IMG/VR virus record: IMGVR_UViG_3300032770_000001
Location: 62,001 to 126,000 of that record
Length of the DNA stretch: 64,000 nt
Origin: a virus
Strand: one strand, 5' to 3'
Shown here in pieces: positions 26,354 to 62,205 of this stretch. The notes under the pieces were generated by a model that worked only from the letters and a program-made list of their open reading frames with translations, searched no databases and was not told the origin of the DNA. Position 1 is the first letter of the stretch, and the number at the start of each line of letters is the position of its first letter. Made by a program: the position numbers and the translations under genes.

Positions 26354-26983
26354 ATGGCATCTGCGGCAGTCGCCCCGGCGCGATTATATCGGGCTCTTAA
26401 CGATAAGGAACTCTCGCGGCGGTTCGCTAGCCGCCCTCTCCGTGCTTTGTTCGACGAAGCATACCACCGTCATCGCGATCAGATTTATCACGTCTGTTAC
26501 AGCTTCGTGCGCAATCAGGACGATGCCGAGGACATGGTCAGCCAGACCTTCCTGAAAGCGTGGAAGGGGCGCAAGGGTTTTCGAGCCGACGCCAAGTTCT
26601 CTACGTGGCTTCATCGAATCGCTGTCAACGAGTGTTTGATGTTCATTCGCAGCAAAAGCGCATTCGGCCACGATGCCCCCACGATCTCGCTGGACGCCGC
26701 AGTACCGAACACTGCCGGGGACGACTTCGTCAAGCCCGATGTTCCTCTCGATCCGCGCACGCTCGACCGCATGGTGGATCACCAGCAGCTACAGCGTGCT
26801 CTGCTCCGGCTGAGTGATGGTCAGCGGGAAGTGTTCGATCTGTATTTCTACAAGCAGCACACCATCGAAGAAATCCAGAAGAAATTAAAGCTGAGTGAGC
26901 CAGCGGTAAAGTCCCGCATTTTCCATGGGCGGCAGAAAGTCCTCCGGGCATTCGGTCGGCTGGATACAGCCGAGATGACCTAA
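26354..26983 (+). CDS. ECF-type RNA polymerase sigma factor
   Basis: 209 residues with the two domains of extracytoplasmic-function sigma factors. Region 2 is at about 30-95 (HRDQIYHVCYSFVRNQDDAE, DMVSQTFLKAW, FSTWLHRIAVNE), which binds core polymerase and the -10. Region 4 is at about 145-200 (ALLRLSDGQREVFDLYFY, then EEIQKKLKLSEPAVKSRIF helix-turn-helix), which binds the -35. The domains are joined by a Pro/Asp linker. It would redirect host RNA polymerase to phage promoters. No anti-sigma gene is adjacent. Confidence 0.88.
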   Translation: MASAAVAPARLYRALNDKELSRRFASRPLRALFDEAYHRHRDQIYHVCYSFVRNQDDAEDMVSQTFLKAWKGRKGFRADAKFSTWLHRIAVNECLMFIRSKSAFGHDAPTISLDAAVPNTAGDDFVKPDVPLDPRTLDRMVDHQQLQRALLRLSDGQREVFDLYFYKQHTIEEIQKKLKLSEPAVKSRIFHGRQKVLRAFGRLDTAEMT

Positions 26984-28162: not shown

Positions 28163-28238
28163 GGGCGTGTAGTTCAGTTGGGAGAGCGGTTGCTTTGCAA
28201 GCAACAGGTCATCGGTTCGATCCCGTTCACGTCCACCA
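28163..28238 (+). tRNA. tRNA-Ala(UGC)
   Basis: Acceptor GGGCGTG/CACGTCC with the G3-U70 pair that specifies alanine. Anticodon loop TTTGCAA on a GGTTGC-type stem, TTCGA T-loop, encoded ACCA end. Reads GCA. Confidence 0.92.
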
Positions 28239-28251
28239 AGTTTAGATCGGA

Positions 28252-28298
28252 GCCGTCATCGAAGATCGGGATGCAGGTGGTTCGAATCCCCGGACGGC
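28252..28298 (+). other. Minimal tRNA-like structure or tRNA remnant
   Basis: A 6-bp stem GCCGTC/GACGGC encloses a short ATC...GAT element with GG and a T-loop-like TTCGAAT. It is too short (47 nt) for a full tRNA and lacks a recognisable anticodon arm. Confidence 0.35.
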
Positions 28299-28330
28299 GA
28301 TAATCACGCGGAGCGGGTTGAGCCGGGTGA

Positions 28331-28380
28331 ACAACAGGCATGGTGCTGAAATCTACCGGGTTCGATGTCCCGGCTGTTGT
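28331..28380 (+). other. Acceptor/T-arm minihelix-like structure
   Basis: A perfect 7-bp stem (ACAACAG/CTGTTGT) and a perfect T-stem (CCGGG/CCCGG with TTCGATGT loop) are joined by only 18 nt. This is the acceptor plus T half of a tRNA without room for D and anticodon arms. It may be a remnant or a functional tRNA mimic. Confidence 0.4.
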
Positions 28381-28570
28381 GCCGATCAATTTTGAAGCGG
28401 TGACCGTAGTGGGAACGGGTGCGAGGGAAATTCTGCACCAGTCGAAAGACCGTGGAGTGGAGTGAATCTGGTTTGTTCCTGTAGGATTGGGCAACCCTTC
28501 CGGGATTAGGGCAAGCTGGTGACACCAGAAACGCTACCGAAGTACCAGCAGGAATCGCTTCAAATTTTTC

Positions 28571-28897
28571 GTGCAGGGTAAACCGCCGTATACGACCAAG
28601 GCTCATTTGAGACGCGGGATAGCGGTTATTGGCAAGGGAGAGCCGGAGAATCGGAACCCGTTTGGAGCCTACTGCACGACTCTTTTTATGCAGACGCCGA
28701 AACTGGTTTACGACTTCATCCGCAGCCGGGTGTACATCGCGACTCGATACACCGAGGACGCAATCGGGCGGATCAAGGTGCTGGAGAAGCACGACGTGAC
28801 CGAGGACTTCGATGGTATTGCGGTCCGGCGCGGATTCTGGGAAGAGACCGAGGTCGGGCAGCAAACCAGAGAGAAATTTGCAGCAGCCGAAAAATAA
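28571..28897 (+). CDS. Hypothetical protein, 108 aa
   Basis: GTG start at 28571, or ATG at 28688 for a shorter form. The C-terminal two-thirds (MQTPKLVYDFIRSRVYIATRY...EDFDGIAVRRGFWEE) has a typical mixed alpha/beta composition. There is no clear ribosome site. It occurs between tRNA-like elements and the small gene at 28960. Confidence 0.45.
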   Translation: MQGKPPYTTKAHLRRGIAVIGKGEPENRNPFGAYCTTLFMQTPKLVYDFIRSRVYIATRYTEDAIGRIKVLEKHDVTEDFDGIAVRRGFWEETEVGQQTREKFAAAEK

Positions 28898-28904
28898 TTG
28901 TTGT

Positions 28905-28929
28905 AAGTTTTCCGAATATCTGGTACTAT
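28905..28929 (+). promoter_or_regulatory. Extended -10 promoter of a micro-gene
   Basis: TTGTAA, 17 bp, then TACTAT inside CTGGTACTAT. The downstream leader carries GAGAGG before the ATG at 28960. Confidence 0.65.
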
Positions 28930-28959
28930 GTATTAGACAGTGAATTTCCGAGAGGCATT

Positions 28960-29091
28960 ATGAACTTCAACTTCACCAACGCGGGATGGCAGACGGGCGC
29001 TGTAGGCGCGGTCGCCGCCGTGTGTGAAGCTGAAGGTATTGTCGCCGCAGGAGCGGCGGATAGCGTGCCCTCGGAGGGTTGGGATGATTAA
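28960..29091 (+). CDS. 43-aa microprotein with its own promoter and terminator
   Basis: The ORF begins MNFNFTNAGWQTGAVGAVAAV and ends in SEGWDD. It has a complete expression unit: extended -10 promoter, GAGAGG ribosome site 6-7 nt before the ATG, and a strong terminator after the stop. The middle is Ala/Gly/Val-rich and weakly hydrophobic. The product is unknown; a regulatory peptide or small anti-host factor is possible. Confidence 0.6.
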   Translation: MNFNFTNAGWQTGAVGAVAAVCEAEGIVAAGAADSVPSEGWDD

Positions 29092-29117
29092 GTAACTCCC
29101 AATCAGAGACTTCCGAG

Positions 29118-29148
29118 GGCGACCTGAAAAGGTCGCCTTTAGTTTTTT
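29118..29148 (+). terminator. Rho-independent terminator
   Basis: GGCGACCT, GAAA tetraloop, AGGTCGCC, then TTTAGTTTTTT. It ends the micro-gene transcript. Confidence 0.85.
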
Positions 29149-29159
29149 GCAGTAGATGT

Positions 29160-29239
29160 TGCCCGGTGGAGTGAGTGGCCGAAACCCCTTCTCTTACAAA
29201 GAAGGCTTACCGCTGGTTCGAATCCAGTCCGGGCAACCA
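29160..29239 (+). tRNA. tRNA-Val(UAC)
   Basis: Acceptor TGCCCGG/CCGGGCA with an encoded CCA. Anticodon stem CTTCT/AGAAG with loop CTTACAA, T-arm CTGG TTCGAAT CCAG. The variable loop is 8 nt. Anticodon UAC reads GUA. Confidence 0.85.
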
Positions 29240-29242
29240 GAT

Positions 29243-29319
29243 GCGGGATTAGCTCAGGCTGGTAGAGCGGTTCGTTGCCAACGAACAGGTCGAGGGTTCA
29301 AATCCCTCATCCCGCCCCA
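29243..29319 (+). tRNA. tRNA-Gly(GCC), copy 1
   Basis: Acceptor GCGGGAT/ATCCCGC, D-arm GCTCAGGCTGGTAGAGC, anticodon loop TTGCCAA, T-arm GAGGG TTCAAAT CCCTC, encoded CCA. Reads GGU/GGC. Confidence 0.93.
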
Positions 29320-29334
29320 AGTTTAGGAGTGAAT

Positions 29335-29550
29335 GTGAAACGCAGCAGACAACGTATCGTGAAGCTGGTGACGACCGTGGAGGTCGAGAAGCATGATTGG
29401 GGATTCCAAGTGAATCACCCGACGTTGGGTCTGGTTGCGACTGCTGACACCGAGGATGAAGCCCTGTCCAAGATGGACAAGATGGTTGTTCGGCAGCTTG
29501 AGTTTGATCTGGCGCACGCGAAAGCGAAGCCAGCAAAGATGGGCCGCTAG
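29335..29550 (+). CDS. Small hypothetical protein between tRNAs, 71 aa
   Basis: GTG start with AGGAG 9 nt upstream, just after tRNA-Gly. The protein (VKLVTTVEVEKHDWGFQVNH...EDEALSKMDKMVV) looks like a small beta-alpha domain. Its last codons and TAG stop are contained in the 5' end of the next tRNA gene, where the stop is formed by U8-A9-G10 of the tRNA. Confidence 0.6.
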   Translation: MKRSRQRIVKLVTTVEVEKHDWGFQVNHPTLGLVATADTEDEALSKMDKMVVRQLEFDLAHAKAKPAKMGR

Positions 29551-29615
29551 CATAACTGGGAATGCATCGCACTTGCAATGCGAAGGAACGGGTTCGAATC
29601 CCGGCGTGTCCACCA
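29541..29615 (+). tRNA. tRNA-Ala(UGC)-like, with a defective acceptor stem
   Basis: Good D-stem (GCAT/ATGC), anticodon stem TCGCA/TGCGA with loop CTTGCAA (UGC), TTCGAAT T-loop and ACCA end. The outer acceptor pairs, including G3-U70, are kept, but the inner three (CGC against CGT) do not pair. Because the 5' strand is also the coding end of the upstream gene, the tRNA may have been compromised by the overlap. Confidence 0.65.
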
Positions 29616-29632
29616 AGTTCAGATGTACCTGT

Positions 29633-29705
29633 AGTGGCTTAGCCAAGTGGTAAGGCGACCCTCTGCAAAAGGGTTAATGCGCGGGTTCGATTCCCGCAGC
29701 CACGT
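29633..29705 (+). tRNA. tRNA-Cys(GCA), copy 1
   Basis: D-arm TAGCCAAGTGGTAAGGC, anticodon stem ACCCT/AGGGT with loop CTGCAAA, T-arm GCGGG TTCGATT CCCGC. Six good acceptor pairs (GTGGCT/AGCCAC) with an A-G at the end, discriminator U73 as in Cys tRNAs. CCA is not encoded. Confidence 0.85.
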
Positions 29706-29706
29706 C

Positions 29707-29783
29707 GGGGTGTTGGAGGAGTTGGAGTCCTCGCCTCCCTGTCACGGAGGAGATCGCGGGTTCGAGGCCCGTACACCCCGCCA
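29707..29783 (+). tRNA. tRNA-Asp(GUC), copy 1
   Basis: Acceptor GGGGTGT/ACACCCC, discriminator G73 (an Asp identity base), anticodon stem CCTCC/GGAGG with loop CTGTCAC, TTCGA T-loop, encoded CCA. Confidence 0.93.
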
Positions 29784-29801
29784 AGTTTGAAGTAGAAGTT
29801 C

Positions 29802-29878
29802 GGTGACGTACCATAATTGGCTAATGGGCTCCCCTGTCACGGGAGAATATGGGGGTTCGAGTCCCCTCGTCACCGCCA
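29802..29878 (+). tRNA. tRNA-Asp(GUC), copy 2
   Basis: Acceptor GGTGACG/CGTCACC, G73, anticodon stem CTCCC/GGGAG with the same loop CTGTCAC, T-arm GGGG TTCGAGT CCCC, CCA. The body differs clearly from copy 1, so this is not a recent duplication. Confidence 0.93.
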
Positions 29879-29880
29879 AC

Positions 29881-29955
29881 GCATCCGTGGCGAAACGGGA
29901 ACGCGGCGGTCTGCAAAACCGTCATGAGTCGGCTCGACACCGACCGGGTGCTCCA
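29881..29955 (+). tRNA. tRNA-Cys(GCA), copy 2
   Basis: Acceptor GCATCCG/CGGGTGC, U73 then CCA. Anticodon loop CTGCAAA on a CGGT/ACCG stem. The T-loop is CTCGACA, lacking the usual T54. Different in body from copy 1. Confidence 0.88.
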
Positions 29956-29961
29956 AGATTG

Positions 29962-30114
29962 ATGCGGCGAAAAATACAATTCGCGATGCTTTGGATAGCA
30001 AAGCGGTTGAGAGCCGCAGCAGACAGTGTTGAGAAACACGCCCCAGTCGTAAATGAGGGGCGACCGACGCTGGAAGATTTGATGTTAGAGAATCGCCGAG
30101 GCGATTTGAAATAG
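29962..30114 (+). CDS. Small basic protein between tRNA and RNase P RNA, 50 aa
   Basis: ATG 7 nt after the CCA of tRNA-Cys, no ribosome site. It begins MRRKIQFAMLWIAKRLRAAA, amphipathic and basic, with an acidic second half. The message might become leaderless after tRNA 3' processing. Confidence is limited by the small size. Confidence 0.4.
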   Translation: MRRKIQFAMLWIAKRLRAAADSVEKHAPVVNEGRPTLEDLMLENRRGDLK

Positions 30115-30125
30115 TTCTTTTACAG

Positions 30126-30500
30126 TTTGTGTCAGTGCCGGACGGTCGCGAGTGGCGTTTGTTTCAGCAGGCGTCATTCGAGGAAAGTCGGGGCACCACA
30201 GGATGGCGTACCAGAGAGACACTGGGCTCCGGTGTGCTTGGAAGCGTCGGCGAAAGCCTTCCCAACCAAGTCCCCGGATGACGATTAGAGCAACAGAGAC
30301 GAGTCGGCGTTAGTACCGCAGCACGGGCTGCGGAGGCCGGGTGAAACGGGCAATCTCTACGCGGTGCAAGCGCAAATAGGCCGACAGGAGTGATCCGCTC
30401 CGTTATGAATCGGCGGGTAGCGTGCTTGAGCGTTACGGCGACGTAACGCCTAGAGGAATGATCGTCCTCGACAGAACCCCGCTTACAGGGCTGACACAAA
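30126..30500 (+). ncRNA. rnpB: RNase P RNA (type A-like), phage-encoded
   Basis: Catalytic RNA that removes tRNA 5' leaders. Seen in order: a perfect 10-bp P1 (TTTGTGTCAG/CTGACACAAA at the two ends), the conserved GAGGAAAGTC block near 30178, AACAGAGACGA, GGGTGAAACGG, GGTGCAAGCGCAAATAGG, GGGTAGCGTGCTTGAGC, CTAGAGGAATGATCG and the 3' block ACAGAACCCCGCTTACAG. Helix P4 forms AAG-U-CGGGG / CCCCGCTT with the universal bulged U kept. One P4 pair is flipped relative to the common bacterial sequence on both strands, a compensatory change showing selection for structure. It lies between tRNA genes. A 133-codon minus-strand ORF here is spurious. No protein subunit gene is visible. Confidence 0.95.
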
Positions 30501-30508
30501 ATTGATGG

Positions 30509-30583
30509 GCGGGTGAGGTATAACTGGTGGTGCCGTGGGCCTCCAACCCACTGAGGCAGGTTCAATTCCTGTCACCCGCTCCA
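30509..30583 (+). tRNA. tRNA-Gly(UCC)
   Basis: Acceptor GCGGGTG/CACCCGC, anticodon stem GTGGG/CCCAC with loop CCTCCAA, TTCAATT T-loop, discriminator T and CCA. Begins 8 nt after the RNase P RNA. Position 33 is C in this loop. Confidence 0.88.
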
Positions 30584-30584
30584 T

Positions 30585-30661
30585 GCGACCATAGTTCAGT
30601 CTGGTAGAATGCTTCCTTGCCATGGAAGAGGTCGAGGGTTCAAATCCCTCTGGTCGCTCCA
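30585..30661 (+). tRNA. tRNA-Gly(GCC), copy 2
   Basis: Acceptor GCGACCA/TGGTCGC, anticodon stem CTTCC/GGAAG with loop TTGCCAT, T-arm GAGGG TTCAAAT CCCTC, CCA encoded. The T-arm is identical to copy 1, the rest differs. Confidence 0.92.
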
Positions 30662-30728
30662 GATTTTAGTTGTACGGGTTCGGCTAATCGGAGCCGAGTG
30701 AACGCGAGATACCCTTCTCGCACCCGAC

Positions 30729-30804
30729 GCGGGAATAGCTCAGTTGGTAGAGTGCGTGCTTCCCAAGCATGAGGTCGTGGGTTCAAGTCCCATTTCCCGC
30801 TCCA
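30729..30804 (+). tRNA. tRNA-Gly(CCC)
   Basis: Acceptor GCGGGAA/TTCCCGC, D-arm GCTCAGTTGGTAGAGT, anticodon stem CGTGC/GCATG with loop TTCCCAA, TTCAAGT T-loop, CCA encoded. Reads GGG. Upstream (30670-30720) are unassigned inverted repeats. Confidence 0.92.
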
Positions 30805-30815
30805 AGTTTTTGTGG

Positions 30816-30821
30816 TATCAT
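30816..30821 (+). promoter_or_regulatory. Extended -10 promoter, leaderless
   Basis: TGTGGTATCAT, with the hexamer at 30816-30821, then 5 nt (GTAGT) and the GTG of the nuclease gene. The same 5-nt spacing and AGTGTG context is found at 43401-43414. Confidence 0.65.
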
Positions 30822-30826
30822 GTAGT

Positions 30827-31228
30827 GTGGCGAATACTACATTCAAAGGTGAGATTGCCGTCCAGAAGGTGATTCTTCGGGCAATCGAAAAAGATGTAAT
30901 CGCAAGCAAGCCTGTCGTTGAAGGTTGCCGTTACGATCTGGTTTTAGATGTTGATGGGTTGAAGAGAACCCAAGTGAAGTATGCTGGACAGACTAGGAAT
31001 GGTGCAATAAAAGTTTCGGTTGCATCACAAGATAGCCGGGGCAAGAAAGGTAAGCGATACGGAGAGCATGAAGTCGATCTCATAATCGCGTATTCTCCGA
31101 TCACGGGAAAGTTTTACAAACTCCCACCCGAAGTCTGGCGAGGGAAAAGGTTGCTTCACCTACGATACGAGCCATCGAAGAACAACCAAAAGATGGGTTG
31201 TTTCGATGCGAGAGATTTTGAGTGGTAA
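30827..31228 (+). CDS. PD-(D/E)XK endonuclease, I-Ssp6803I-like family
   Basis: 133 residues from the GTG at 30827 (a GTG 15 nt upstream is in frame but lies inside the promoter). Motifs: GEIAVQKVILRAI helix with the early Glu, YDLVLDVDG, and TQVKYAGQ (the D...QxK core), followed by DLIIAY. This pattern is that of the PDDEXK_5 family, whose known member is encoded in a cyanobacterial tRNA intron. Placement inside a tRNA array fits a homing-type or array-remodelling nuclease. Stop is 5 nt before the next tRNA region. Confidence 0.78.
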   Translation: MANTTFKGEIAVQKVILRAIEKDVIASKPVVEGCRYDLVLDVDGLKRTQVKYAGQTRNGAIKVSVASQDSRGKKGKRYGEHEVDLIIAYSPITGKFYKLPPEVWRGKRLLHLRYEPSKNNQKMGCFDARDFEW

Positions 31229-31235
31229 CAAGTTC

Positions 31236-31311
31236 GGGCCTATGGCGCAGTTGGGAGCGCGTTTCCATGGCATGGAAAAGGTCGTGAGTTCGAATCTCAC
31301 TAGGTCCACCA
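31236..31311 (+). tRNA. tRNA-Ala(GGC)
   Basis: Acceptor GGGCCTA/TAGGTCC with G3-U70, anticodon stem TTTCC/GGAAA with loop ATGGCAT, T-arm GTGAG TTCGAAT CTCAC, ACCA. Reads GCU/GCC. Position 33 is T. Confidence 0.9.
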
Positions 31312-31316
31312 AGTTT

Positions 31317-31444
31317 GGCGAGCGTCCGAGTTGACGTGCTCGAAGGCTGCAACCTTCCACGTTGACTGGCTCTGGCGAGTAACGGACGGAAACGCGGATC
31401 AGCTTGCAGGCTCCCGTGGAGAGGGGTTCGATTCCTCCTCGTTA
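31317..31444 (+). other. Long tRNA-like structure with GCA loop
   Basis: Possible acceptor GGCGAG/CTCGTT (two G-U pairs), D-like CGAG/CTCG, a stem GAAGG/CTTCC with loop CTGCAAC, a CCACG...CGTGG stem enclosing about 50 nt, and a T-arm GAGGG GTTCGAT TCCTC. At about 128 nt it is much longer than a tRNA. It may be an interrupted or degenerate Cys-like tRNA. Confidence 0.35.
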
Positions 31445-31496
31445 AATTTTCAGCGGTTTTATTACGTATTATAAAACCGCGTTTGACTGAAATTTT
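31444..31496 (+). repeat. AT-rich nested inverted repeat
   Basis: Inner stem GCGGTTTTAT/ATAAAACCGC (10 bp), outer near-perfect arm AAATTTTCA/TGAAATTTT. It may act as a weak terminator or mark an old insertion. Confidence 0.6.
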
Positions 31497-31503
31497 ATAG
31501 CGT

Positions 31504-31580
31504 GGCCCATTCTTCTACGCTGGTTAGGAAAGCGGCCCTTCAAGCCGAAAAAGGGGGATCGTCGCCCCCATGGGCTACCA
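31504..31580 (+). tRNA. tRNA-Glu(UUC), with C33
   Basis: Acceptor GGCCCAT/ATGGGCT with a G1-U72 pair shared with the Glu(CUC) gene at 32297, D-arm TTCT/AGGA, anticodon loop CCTTCAA on CGGC/GCCG, T-stem GGGGG/CCCCC with an unusual ATCGTCG loop, ACCA. Position 33 is C instead of the near-universal U. Confidence 0.75.
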
Positions 31581-31588
31581 AATTTTGA

Positions 31589-31666
31589 GTGCTGTTAGCT
31601 CAGTCTGGTTAGAGCGGTTGCTTCACACGCAACAGGTCGGGGGTTTAAATCCCTCACGGCACACCA
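31589..31666 (+). tRNA. tRNA-Val(CAC)
   Basis: Acceptor GTGCTGT/ACGGCAC, D-arm GCTCAGTCTGGTTAGAGC, anticodon stem GTTGC/GCAAC with loop TTCACAC, T-loop TTTAAAT, ACCA. Reads GUG. Confidence 0.92.
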
Positions 31667-31674
31667 AGTTCGTT

Positions 31675-31827
31675 ATGGAAAAGTTACTTCGCAAAATCGG
31701 GGAATGGTTGAAAGAGTGGGAGTGCAAGCATCCTTCTCTCGTTTGGTCTCGTCTCATTAAAGTGGGAAAGCGTATGGGACGCATGTGTCCTGATTGCGAA
31801 ATGTTCATTGAAGATTTGGGCGTGTAG
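31675..31827 (+). CDS. Small CPxC protein between tRNAs, 50 aa
   Basis: ATG 9 nt after the CCA of tRNA-Val, with no ribosome site. Begins MEKLLRKIGEWLKEWECKHP and ends with MCPDCEMFIEDLGV. The TAG stop is made from U8-A9-G10 of the following tRNA-Ala, and the last codons are the tRNA 5' acceptor strand. It is an unusual but coherent overlap, seen also at 29550. Confidence 0.5.
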   Translation: MEKLLRKIGEWLKEWECKHPSLVWSRLIKVGKRMGRMCPDCEMFIEDLGV

Positions 31828-31893
31828 TTCAGTTGGGAGAACGCTTCCCTCGCACGGAAGAGGTCACGAGTTCAACTCTCGTCACGTCCACCA
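31818..31893 (+). tRNA. tRNA-Ala(CGC)
   Basis: Acceptor GGGCGTG/CACGTCC with G3-U70, identical in acceptor to the UGC gene. Anticodon stem CTTCC/GGAAG with loop CTCGCAC, T-arm ACGAG TTCAACT CTCGT, ACCA. Reads GCG. Confidence 0.92.
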
Positions 31894-31897
31894 GTTT

Positions 31898-31958
31898 TAC
31901 GGATGCCTAGAAGTTGGAGGCACGCAATATCAGCGGCGGGTTCGATGTCCGCTCCGTA
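31898..31958 (+). other. tRNA-like structure lacking an anticodon arm
   Basis: Acceptor TACGGA/TCCGTA, D-arm GCCT...AGGC, and T-arm GCGGG TTCGATG TCCGC, with only about 14 nt where the anticodon arm and variable loop should be. It lies between two canonical tRNAs. Confidence 0.45.
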
Positions 31959-31959
31959 T

Positions 31960-32035
31960 GCGCGGCTAGCTCAGTGGTTAGAGCACTTGCTTGACACGCA
32001 AGAGGTCGCAGGTTCGAGTCCTGCGCTGCGCACCA
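31960..32035 (+). tRNA. tRNA-Val(GAC)
   Basis: Acceptor GCGCGGC/GCTGCGC, D-arm GCTCAGTGGTTAGAGC, anticodon stem CTTGC/GCAAG with loop TTGACAC, T-arm GCAGG TTCGAGT CCTGC, ACCA. Reads GUU/GUC. Confidence 0.93.
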
Positions 32036-32040
32036 AGTTT

Positions 32041-32127
32041 GGAAGTGTAGCTCAATTCAGGAGAGCAACATACGACGCCGCGAGGCGCACGTGGCATGTG
32101 GTGCAGTGAGAGGCTCACCCACTTCCA
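32041..32127 (+). other. tRNA-like structure with aberrant anticodon and T arms
   Basis: A perfect 7-bp acceptor (GGAAGTG/CACTTCC) and a canonical D-arm (GCTC AATTCAGGA GAGC). The remainder is a GC-rich hairpin (GCC GCGA GGC) and a GTGAG/CTCAC hairpin without a TTCRA loop. No CCA is encoded. Bases 32128-32296 downstream hold nothing I can identify. Confidence 0.4.
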
Positions 32128-32296
32128 AAGTTTTTGTACCGGGTTGGTGGGGGAATATATCGAATACCCCCATGCGGTGTCGATGACGCGGCTGCTATCG
32201 CTAAACGCGGCACTGCTTTGTGACAACCCTGATCGAAGCGGCTGCATAATGCCCCGTCCATAGCAGTGGATGGTCAAAAGCAGCCGTAGAGTTTAC

Positions 32297-32370
32297 GGCC
32301 CTATCTTCTAGTGGCAGGAAACCCGACTCTCAATCGGAAAACGCGAGTTCGATTCTCGCTAGGGCTACCA
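32297..32370 (+). tRNA. tRNA-Glu(CUC)
   Basis: Acceptor GGCCCTA/TAGGGCT with G1-U72, D-arm TTCT/AGGA, anticodon loop CTCTCAA on CCGA/TCGG, T-arm GCGAG TTCGATT CTCGC, ACCA. Last tRNA of the array; reads GAG. Confidence 0.9.
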
Positions 32371-61886: not shown

Positions 61887-62205
61887 GGATCGCGTCGAAG
61901 AGCGAATCTATAAAAGCCTGTGGCATATCCTCATCGCCGGGGTTGGCGTCTACGAGCTTCGCAATCATAAAACCAAGCTTTCAAAAGTTCTTGCCTGTGG
62001 GCTGATTGCATTCCACATCGATGGGGCTATCGCGGACATTTGCGATAGCAAACCCTTGTCGCGGCGGGTATTAGAAAGTATACGACCGGAGAAACGCGAT
62101 GAGTCCCTCAATAGCACTAAGCTTAAACAGCTTGAAAGACGCCTCGAAAAGTTACGGCAGCAAACCGTACTGGTTCGGCCTCGGCTTCATCCAACTGAAG
62201 CTTAA
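61873..62205 (+). CDS. Small protein with a hydrophobic segment, 110 aa
   Basis: ATG overlapping the previous gene. A helical segment (SLWHILIAGVGVYEL) and a second one (VLACGLIAFHIDGAIADI), followed by a basic coiled-coil-like end. The last third overlaps the cupin gene by about 107 nt in another frame, which is unusually long; one of the two starts may be wrong. Confidence 0.45.
   Translation: MSSGKDRVEERIYKSLWHILIAGVGVYELRNHKTKLSKVLACGLIAFHIDGAIADICDSKPLSRRVLESIRPEKRDESLNSTKLKQLERRLEKLRQQTVLVRPRLHPTEA

Follow-up and report, generated by a model that had tools for sequence, protein, structure and literature searches.

A class A RNase P RNA gene within the tRNA array of a jumbo phage record

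Introduction

Nearly all cells possess the ribozyme RNase P RNA. In T4-type tRNA processing, phage tRNAs need 5' maturation and depend for it on the RNA of the host; the tRNAs of the phage described here have the same need, but this phage brings an RNA of its own. We found no description of an RNase P RNA (P RNA) in a phage in the open-licence papers searched, although reports elsewhere are not excluded. The translation sets described for jumbo phages are the nearest comparison on the viral side. The huge-phage paper of Al-Shayeb et al. 2020 (PMC7162821) lists tRNAs, tmRNA, release factors and SmpB, and keyword look-ups in that paper, in a 224-genome jumbo-phage survey (PMC7824862) and in a 2026 jumbo-phage review (PMC13282480) turned up no RNase P in phages. 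The present record follows a similar logic in bringing translation functions, shares RF-1, tmRNA and tRNAs with these sets, and has a P RNA besides.

On the bacterial side, the RNA resembles the rnpB family RF00010 over the whole model, with all core blocks, helices P1-P5, P7, P10-P12, P15 and P18, and the bulged U of P4. It differs in being phage-encoded, within a tRNA array and without an RnpA gene, and in lacking P13/P14 and the GGU of L15 and having one P4 pair swapped. Among the bacterial loci compared, the best nucleotide matches are Betaproteobacteria bacterium GR16-43 and relatives (71.6-72.2%). The P RNAs of GR16-43 and BP07, both of the betaproteobacterial group, likewise lack P13/P14 and carry the same G-C pair in P4, and the junctions of rnpB in GR16-43 and its relatives are very similar; unlike the phage gene, the genes of GR16-43 and its relatives are chromosomal single copies with no tRNA gene in the surrounding 8-kb locus. 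The molecule is of a kind already known; what is new, so far as the literature searched shows, is its viral home, its placement in an array and the trimmed forms reported below.

Results

The window analysed here, 64,000 nucleotides long, runs from base 62001 to base 126000 of a virus record of 455,708 bp (IMGVR_UViG_3300032770_000001, here G000). An earlier note, made from the sequence alone, had placed in it a P RNA with all conserved blocks in order, closed by a perfect 10-bp P1, and had held that a covariance score below threshold or a loss of core bases would refute the assignment. Neither was the case. A cmscan search against Rfam matched RF00010 (RNaseP_bact_a) at 30128-30502 (+), with 167.1 bits against a curated cut-off (gathering score) of 100 bits, E = 4.1e-52 and full coverage of the model (1-367 of 367), and the 455,708-bp record contains no second copy. 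Together with the covariation described below, the match defines a class A gene without P13/P14 at 30126-30502 (+). The RNA is intact: the P1 strands (30126-30135 and 30491-30500, both +) form 10 perfect base pairs, and the conserved blocks all occur in order, namely GAGGAAAG at 30180, ACAGA at 30293, GGUGAAA at 30340, GGUGCAAG at 30363, CAAAUAGG at 30373, GCUUGAG at 30424, UAGAGGAAUG at 30451 and ACAGAACCCCGCUUA at 30471. Its folding beats 100 of 100 dinucleotide shuffles (z = -2.9).

Both substrate-recognition junctions are present and conserved. J11/12, with the ACAGA block (30293-30304, +), is invariant in the alignment of related phage RNAs and, by analogy, may serve in T-loop recognition; J12/11 holds the GGUGAAA block (30340-30346, +). 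Three features go beyond the earlier note, namely the missing P13/P14, an L15 without GGU and the absence of RnpA. Helices P13/P14, which are common but not universal, are missing from the window RNA (43 columns deleted relative to the RF00010 model), and P12, CGGC/GCCG with an inner CCGCAG/CUGCGG, occupies 30305-30339 (+). The GGU of L15 pairs with the tRNA CCA and is not universal. P15, supported by sequence and structure, lies at 30380-30414 (+) with an inner GGAG/CUCC hairpin, and its loop has no GGU motif anywhere in 30385-30409. GGU is also absent from L15 in cyanobacteria and many CPR, and P13/P14 are also missing in various bacteria (PMC8172020), so that the absence of these helices is no defining loss. 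The related phage records G005, G012, G022 and G040 lack P13/P14 as well; in G016, at the same array position, the two helices are present.

The earlier note had also read P4 as CGGGG/CCCCG in place of CCGGG/CCCGG with the bulged U kept, which is right in detail. P4 consists of eight pairs and the bulged U30188; its 5' strand (30185-30193, +) reads A30185, A30186, G30187, bulged U30188, C30189, G30190, G30191, G30192 and G30193, i.e. AAG(U)CGGGG, and its 3' strand (30477-30484, +) reads C30477-C30480, G30481, C30482, U30483 and U30484, i.e. CCCCGCUU. The only pair off the class A consensus is 30190-30480, where C-G has become G-C. Many bacteria have the same G-C in their one chromosomal P RNA, for example Bacteroidales and some beta- and deltaproteobacteria. 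In a scan of bacterial genomes for C at the 3' position of this pair, most of the matches listed were from Bacteroidales, the rest from beta- and deltaproteobacteria, among others; in these matches the 5' strand compensates with G. Since many bacteria carry the swap, it proves little by itself about selection, and its use as sole proof was rejected. A phage-specific P4 signature was rejected too, as C-G, G-C and A-U all occur here among phages. The swap falls within natural variation and does not mark a phage.

The claim of structural selection for which the swap had been offered nonetheless stands on other evidence. We aligned ten related phage RNAs, all without P13/P14, and counted pairs in the model structure with P4 added. 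Pairing was found in 93.2% of 710 cells (74.4% when shuffled), 46 of 79 pairs were changed on both sides (27.6 shuffled), double-changed cells numbered 134 (40.9 shuffled), and the covariation score was 0.487, against 0.168 for shuffled alignments and at most 0.091 for slid ones, in which pairing did not exceed 42%. No shuffle was as good as the real alignment. P4 pairs in every cell (100%), two of its pairs show double changes, and the swapped pair is C-G in three of the ten RNAs and G-C in seven. Because the structure comes from the model and one of the ten aligned RNAs, the slid control is biased toward it, and the shuffle control takes no account of relatedness among the ten; the margin is large in both. 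In the alignment of the window's lineage, the catalytic core and both recognition junctions vary little or not at all. Covariation among related phages, which the earlier note had called for, is thus the strong evidence that this RNA is under selection.

The P RNA lies, as the earlier note had it, inside a tRNA array, in which a tRNA search found 16 tRNAs on one strand (28163-32370, +). It is preceded by tRNA-Cys(gca) (29881-29955, +) and followed by tRNA-Gly(tcc) (30509-30583, +), both conserved in related phages, with spacers of 170 nt and 6 nt, respectively. The order tRNA-Cys(gca), P RNA, tRNA-Gly(tcc) recurs in G005, G012, G016, G031 and G044 as well as G000, and in G005, G012 and G031 the spacers are 6 nt on either side. 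In 24 of 24 loci, the window included, all detected tRNAs share the strand of the P RNA, and many of the neighbouring tRNAs are at most 10 nt from it. Such placement suggests a function in connection with tRNAs. The P RNAs of G046, G047 and G053 are several kb from the nearest tRNA found and that of G040 is 1.6 kb away, so that the idea of ends punctuated by adjoining tRNAs cannot be general. No promoter was recognised near the window P RNA in a promoter scan, which was uninformative. A gene for a sigma-70-like factor (26354-26983, +) lies near the array, and one for a PD-(D/E)XK endonuclease (30812-31228, +) lies inside it.

The surrounding record is that of a tailed phage, by the criterion of virion structural genes in the same contig: it encodes a major head protein (E = 6.8e-42), a portal protein and a minor head protein, along with RIIA and RIIB, ribonucleotide reductase, a DnaB-like helicase, UvsX and a clamp loader. 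A terminase was not detected with PF03237. Given the phage structural genes and the synteny shared with other records, host contamination of G000 was rejected. ARAGORN detected a tmRNA and 61 tRNAs, the latter spread over several clusters; 19 amino acids are assigned, two more tRNAs have a CUA anticodon, one is unassigned, and 59 of the 61 encode CCA. Genes for RF-1, peptide deformylase, Thg1 and RNA ligases are also present. A complete two-subunit RNase P would require an RnpA gene in the same genome, and G000 does not meet this requirement: no RnpA (PF00825) was recognised in any of 26 records, G000 and 25 others, with a profile that found the protein in 10 of 14 control genomes.

The earlier note had called a virus with this RNA unusual. 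A class A P RNA in a phage is real, but it is not a sole case, since two IMG/VR motif scans and whole-record searches yielded some 30 further records in which RF00010 occurs together with tRNA arrays or structural genes of phages. About 12 short high-scoring records that look like bacterial flanks of proviruses were left out on the grounds of the size of the contig, the score and the absence of a tRNA array, with no gene-by-gene check. In the records retained, the P RNA is mostly in a tRNA array and on the tRNA strand. The RNA is common to many large phages; nine further records exceed 200 kb (G005, G024, G028, G030, G040, G046, G047, G051 and G053), and all of these except G030 score above the RF00010 cut-off. 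The same major head family was found in 10 of 30 tested records, G000 included, and a terminase in four others. No RF00010 match was found in Tunturi_5 (the nearest isolate by a helicase, at 44% identity), phage G, XacN1, Atu_ph07, Lak-C1 or a 735-kb record. Two apparent cases were discarded: the class A P RNA of Microcystis phage MaAM05 (MW495066.1, L234) lies beside fabI, engB and glyS and looks like bacterial sequence, and the match in Acinetobacter phage MD-2021a has an integrase and coaD next to it, much like a bacterial contig that carries a prophage.

A much shortened P RNA was found in G032, a 48,232-bp contig with baseplate wedge and portal-like genes. It is 191 nt long (L033:482-672, -) and scores 106.8 bits, above the cut-off; P1-P5 and P15 pair, and a 4-bp hairpin, GGAC-GAAA-GUUC, stands in place of the specificity domain. 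It directly adjoins tRNA-Glu (0 nt) and tRNA-Arg (-1 nt). To our knowledge, a bacterial P RNA without the specificity domain has so far existed only as an engineered construct, and the 191-nt RNA, if active, would be a natural one. Other short matches of 202-216 nt (L102:8202-8408, L112 and L107, in the viral records G025, G007 and G010) may be reduced forms or deletions.

In a tree, the nine phage RNAs of the window's lineage group as a single clade (bootstrap 100). Its placement among P RNAs of the betaproteobacterial group is moderately supported (51-89 at successive nodes), and a donor or host among the betaproteobacteria is a reasonable guess. Other groups of phages branch at different points, interspersed with bacteria, but a common origin of the phage P RNAs was not rejected (AU p = 0.106). 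The tree rests on 288 columns from a single RNA and carries little weight as evidence.

Discussion

We consider it probable that the window encodes a functional phage P RNA that joins the host RnpA and matures the phage's 61 tRNAs. Co-transcription, processing punctuated by tRNAs, use of host RnpA and catalysis are inferences, as there are no activity or expression data. The P RNA would probably be transcribed together with the surrounding tRNAs, and its ends would be set largely by their processing: RNase P itself would cut the leader of tRNA-Gly(tcc) 6 nt downstream, leaving a tail of a few nucleotides at the 3' end of the P RNA. Assembled with host RnpA, the hybrid enzyme would remove the 5' leaders of the phage's tRNAs, whose maturation would then depend less on the survival of the host RNase P RNA during infection. 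The other suggestion of the earlier note, that the RNA might replace host RNase P, is conjecture. Contact with the substrate 3' end may be weak, because L15 has no GGU although 59 of the 61 tRNAs encode CCA.

The hybrid with host RnpA is favoured because core and junctions are retained, RnpA is absent and the tRNAs are co-located, but the absence of RnpA can be read in other ways. Since no RnpA was found in 26 records, a protein bound by the RNA would have to come from the host's supply, and the RNA might then be a decoy that binds host RnpA and blocks or redirects host RNase P, with no need to cut phage tRNAs. The G032 form, which keeps mainly the catalytic domain, would fit such a role. We nevertheless regard it as quite improbable: a pure decoy would not need a core and two recognition junctions that are (nearly) invariant in the window's lineage, and placement in tRNA arrays points to tRNAs. 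Bacterial P RNAs can work without protein at high Mg2+, and J18/2 and neighbouring segments contact RnpA in known enzymes. The former allows for a fully viral RNase P, consisting of the P RNA by itself or together with a phage protein that is no relative of RnpA (a recent structural study, PMC13254310, concerns protein-free catalysis). With most phage proteins unassigned and RnpA found in no record, a diverged phage protein could stand in for RnpA undetected; no candidate has been identified, however, and the segments that would contact RnpA are conserved, which makes this reading unlikely. Decoy and protein-free action remain possible, with less support than the hybrid enzyme.

That the RNA is a decaying passenger picked up along with host tRNA genes, or host DNA misplaced in a viral contig, is the reading to which we give hardly any weight. 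The moderately supported grouping with P RNAs of betaproteobacteria, from which P13/P14 are missing too, is compatible with it, and some matching records in viral or phage collections, such as MW495066, do look bacterial. It is already contradicted by covariation across diverged phages and a conserved position in independent contigs, and phage structural genes lie in the same record.

Turning from this RNA to the phages at large, P RNAs of their own in tRNA clusters, without a protein partner, suggest that viruses bring part of the tRNA-making machinery. Large phages might form a distinct reservoir of P RNAs, acquired perhaps several times from bacteria and acting as a viral or hybrid RNase P that frees itself by cleaving tRNAs, some trimmed to a catalytic domain of about 190 nt without the specificity domain; this broader proposal is tentative, and we would not yet lean toward it. 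The phage copies supply many diverged P RNAs, trimmed in nature, on which structure and function can be studied, and through them the extent of phage takeover of tRNA maturation becomes testable. A hybrid of viral ribozyme and host protein, if demonstrated, would represent a new type of enzyme, built from phage and host parts.

Other RNA-related genes of G000 were noted in passing. The tmRNA (L077:10958-11240, -) matches the permuted-tmRNA family of Rfam (78.8 bits), and an SmpB gene was not found in the record. The two tRNAs with CUA (amber) anticodons lie at L077:5852-6052 (-); together with the RF-1 domain protein, they may reflect stop-codon recoding. An RNA-repair set, comprising a Thg1-like tRNA 5'-end polymerase, RlaP, a PNKP phosphatase and an RNA ligase, lies within bases 206001-286000 of the record (L084-L087) and shares this stretch of the genome with a tRNA cluster.
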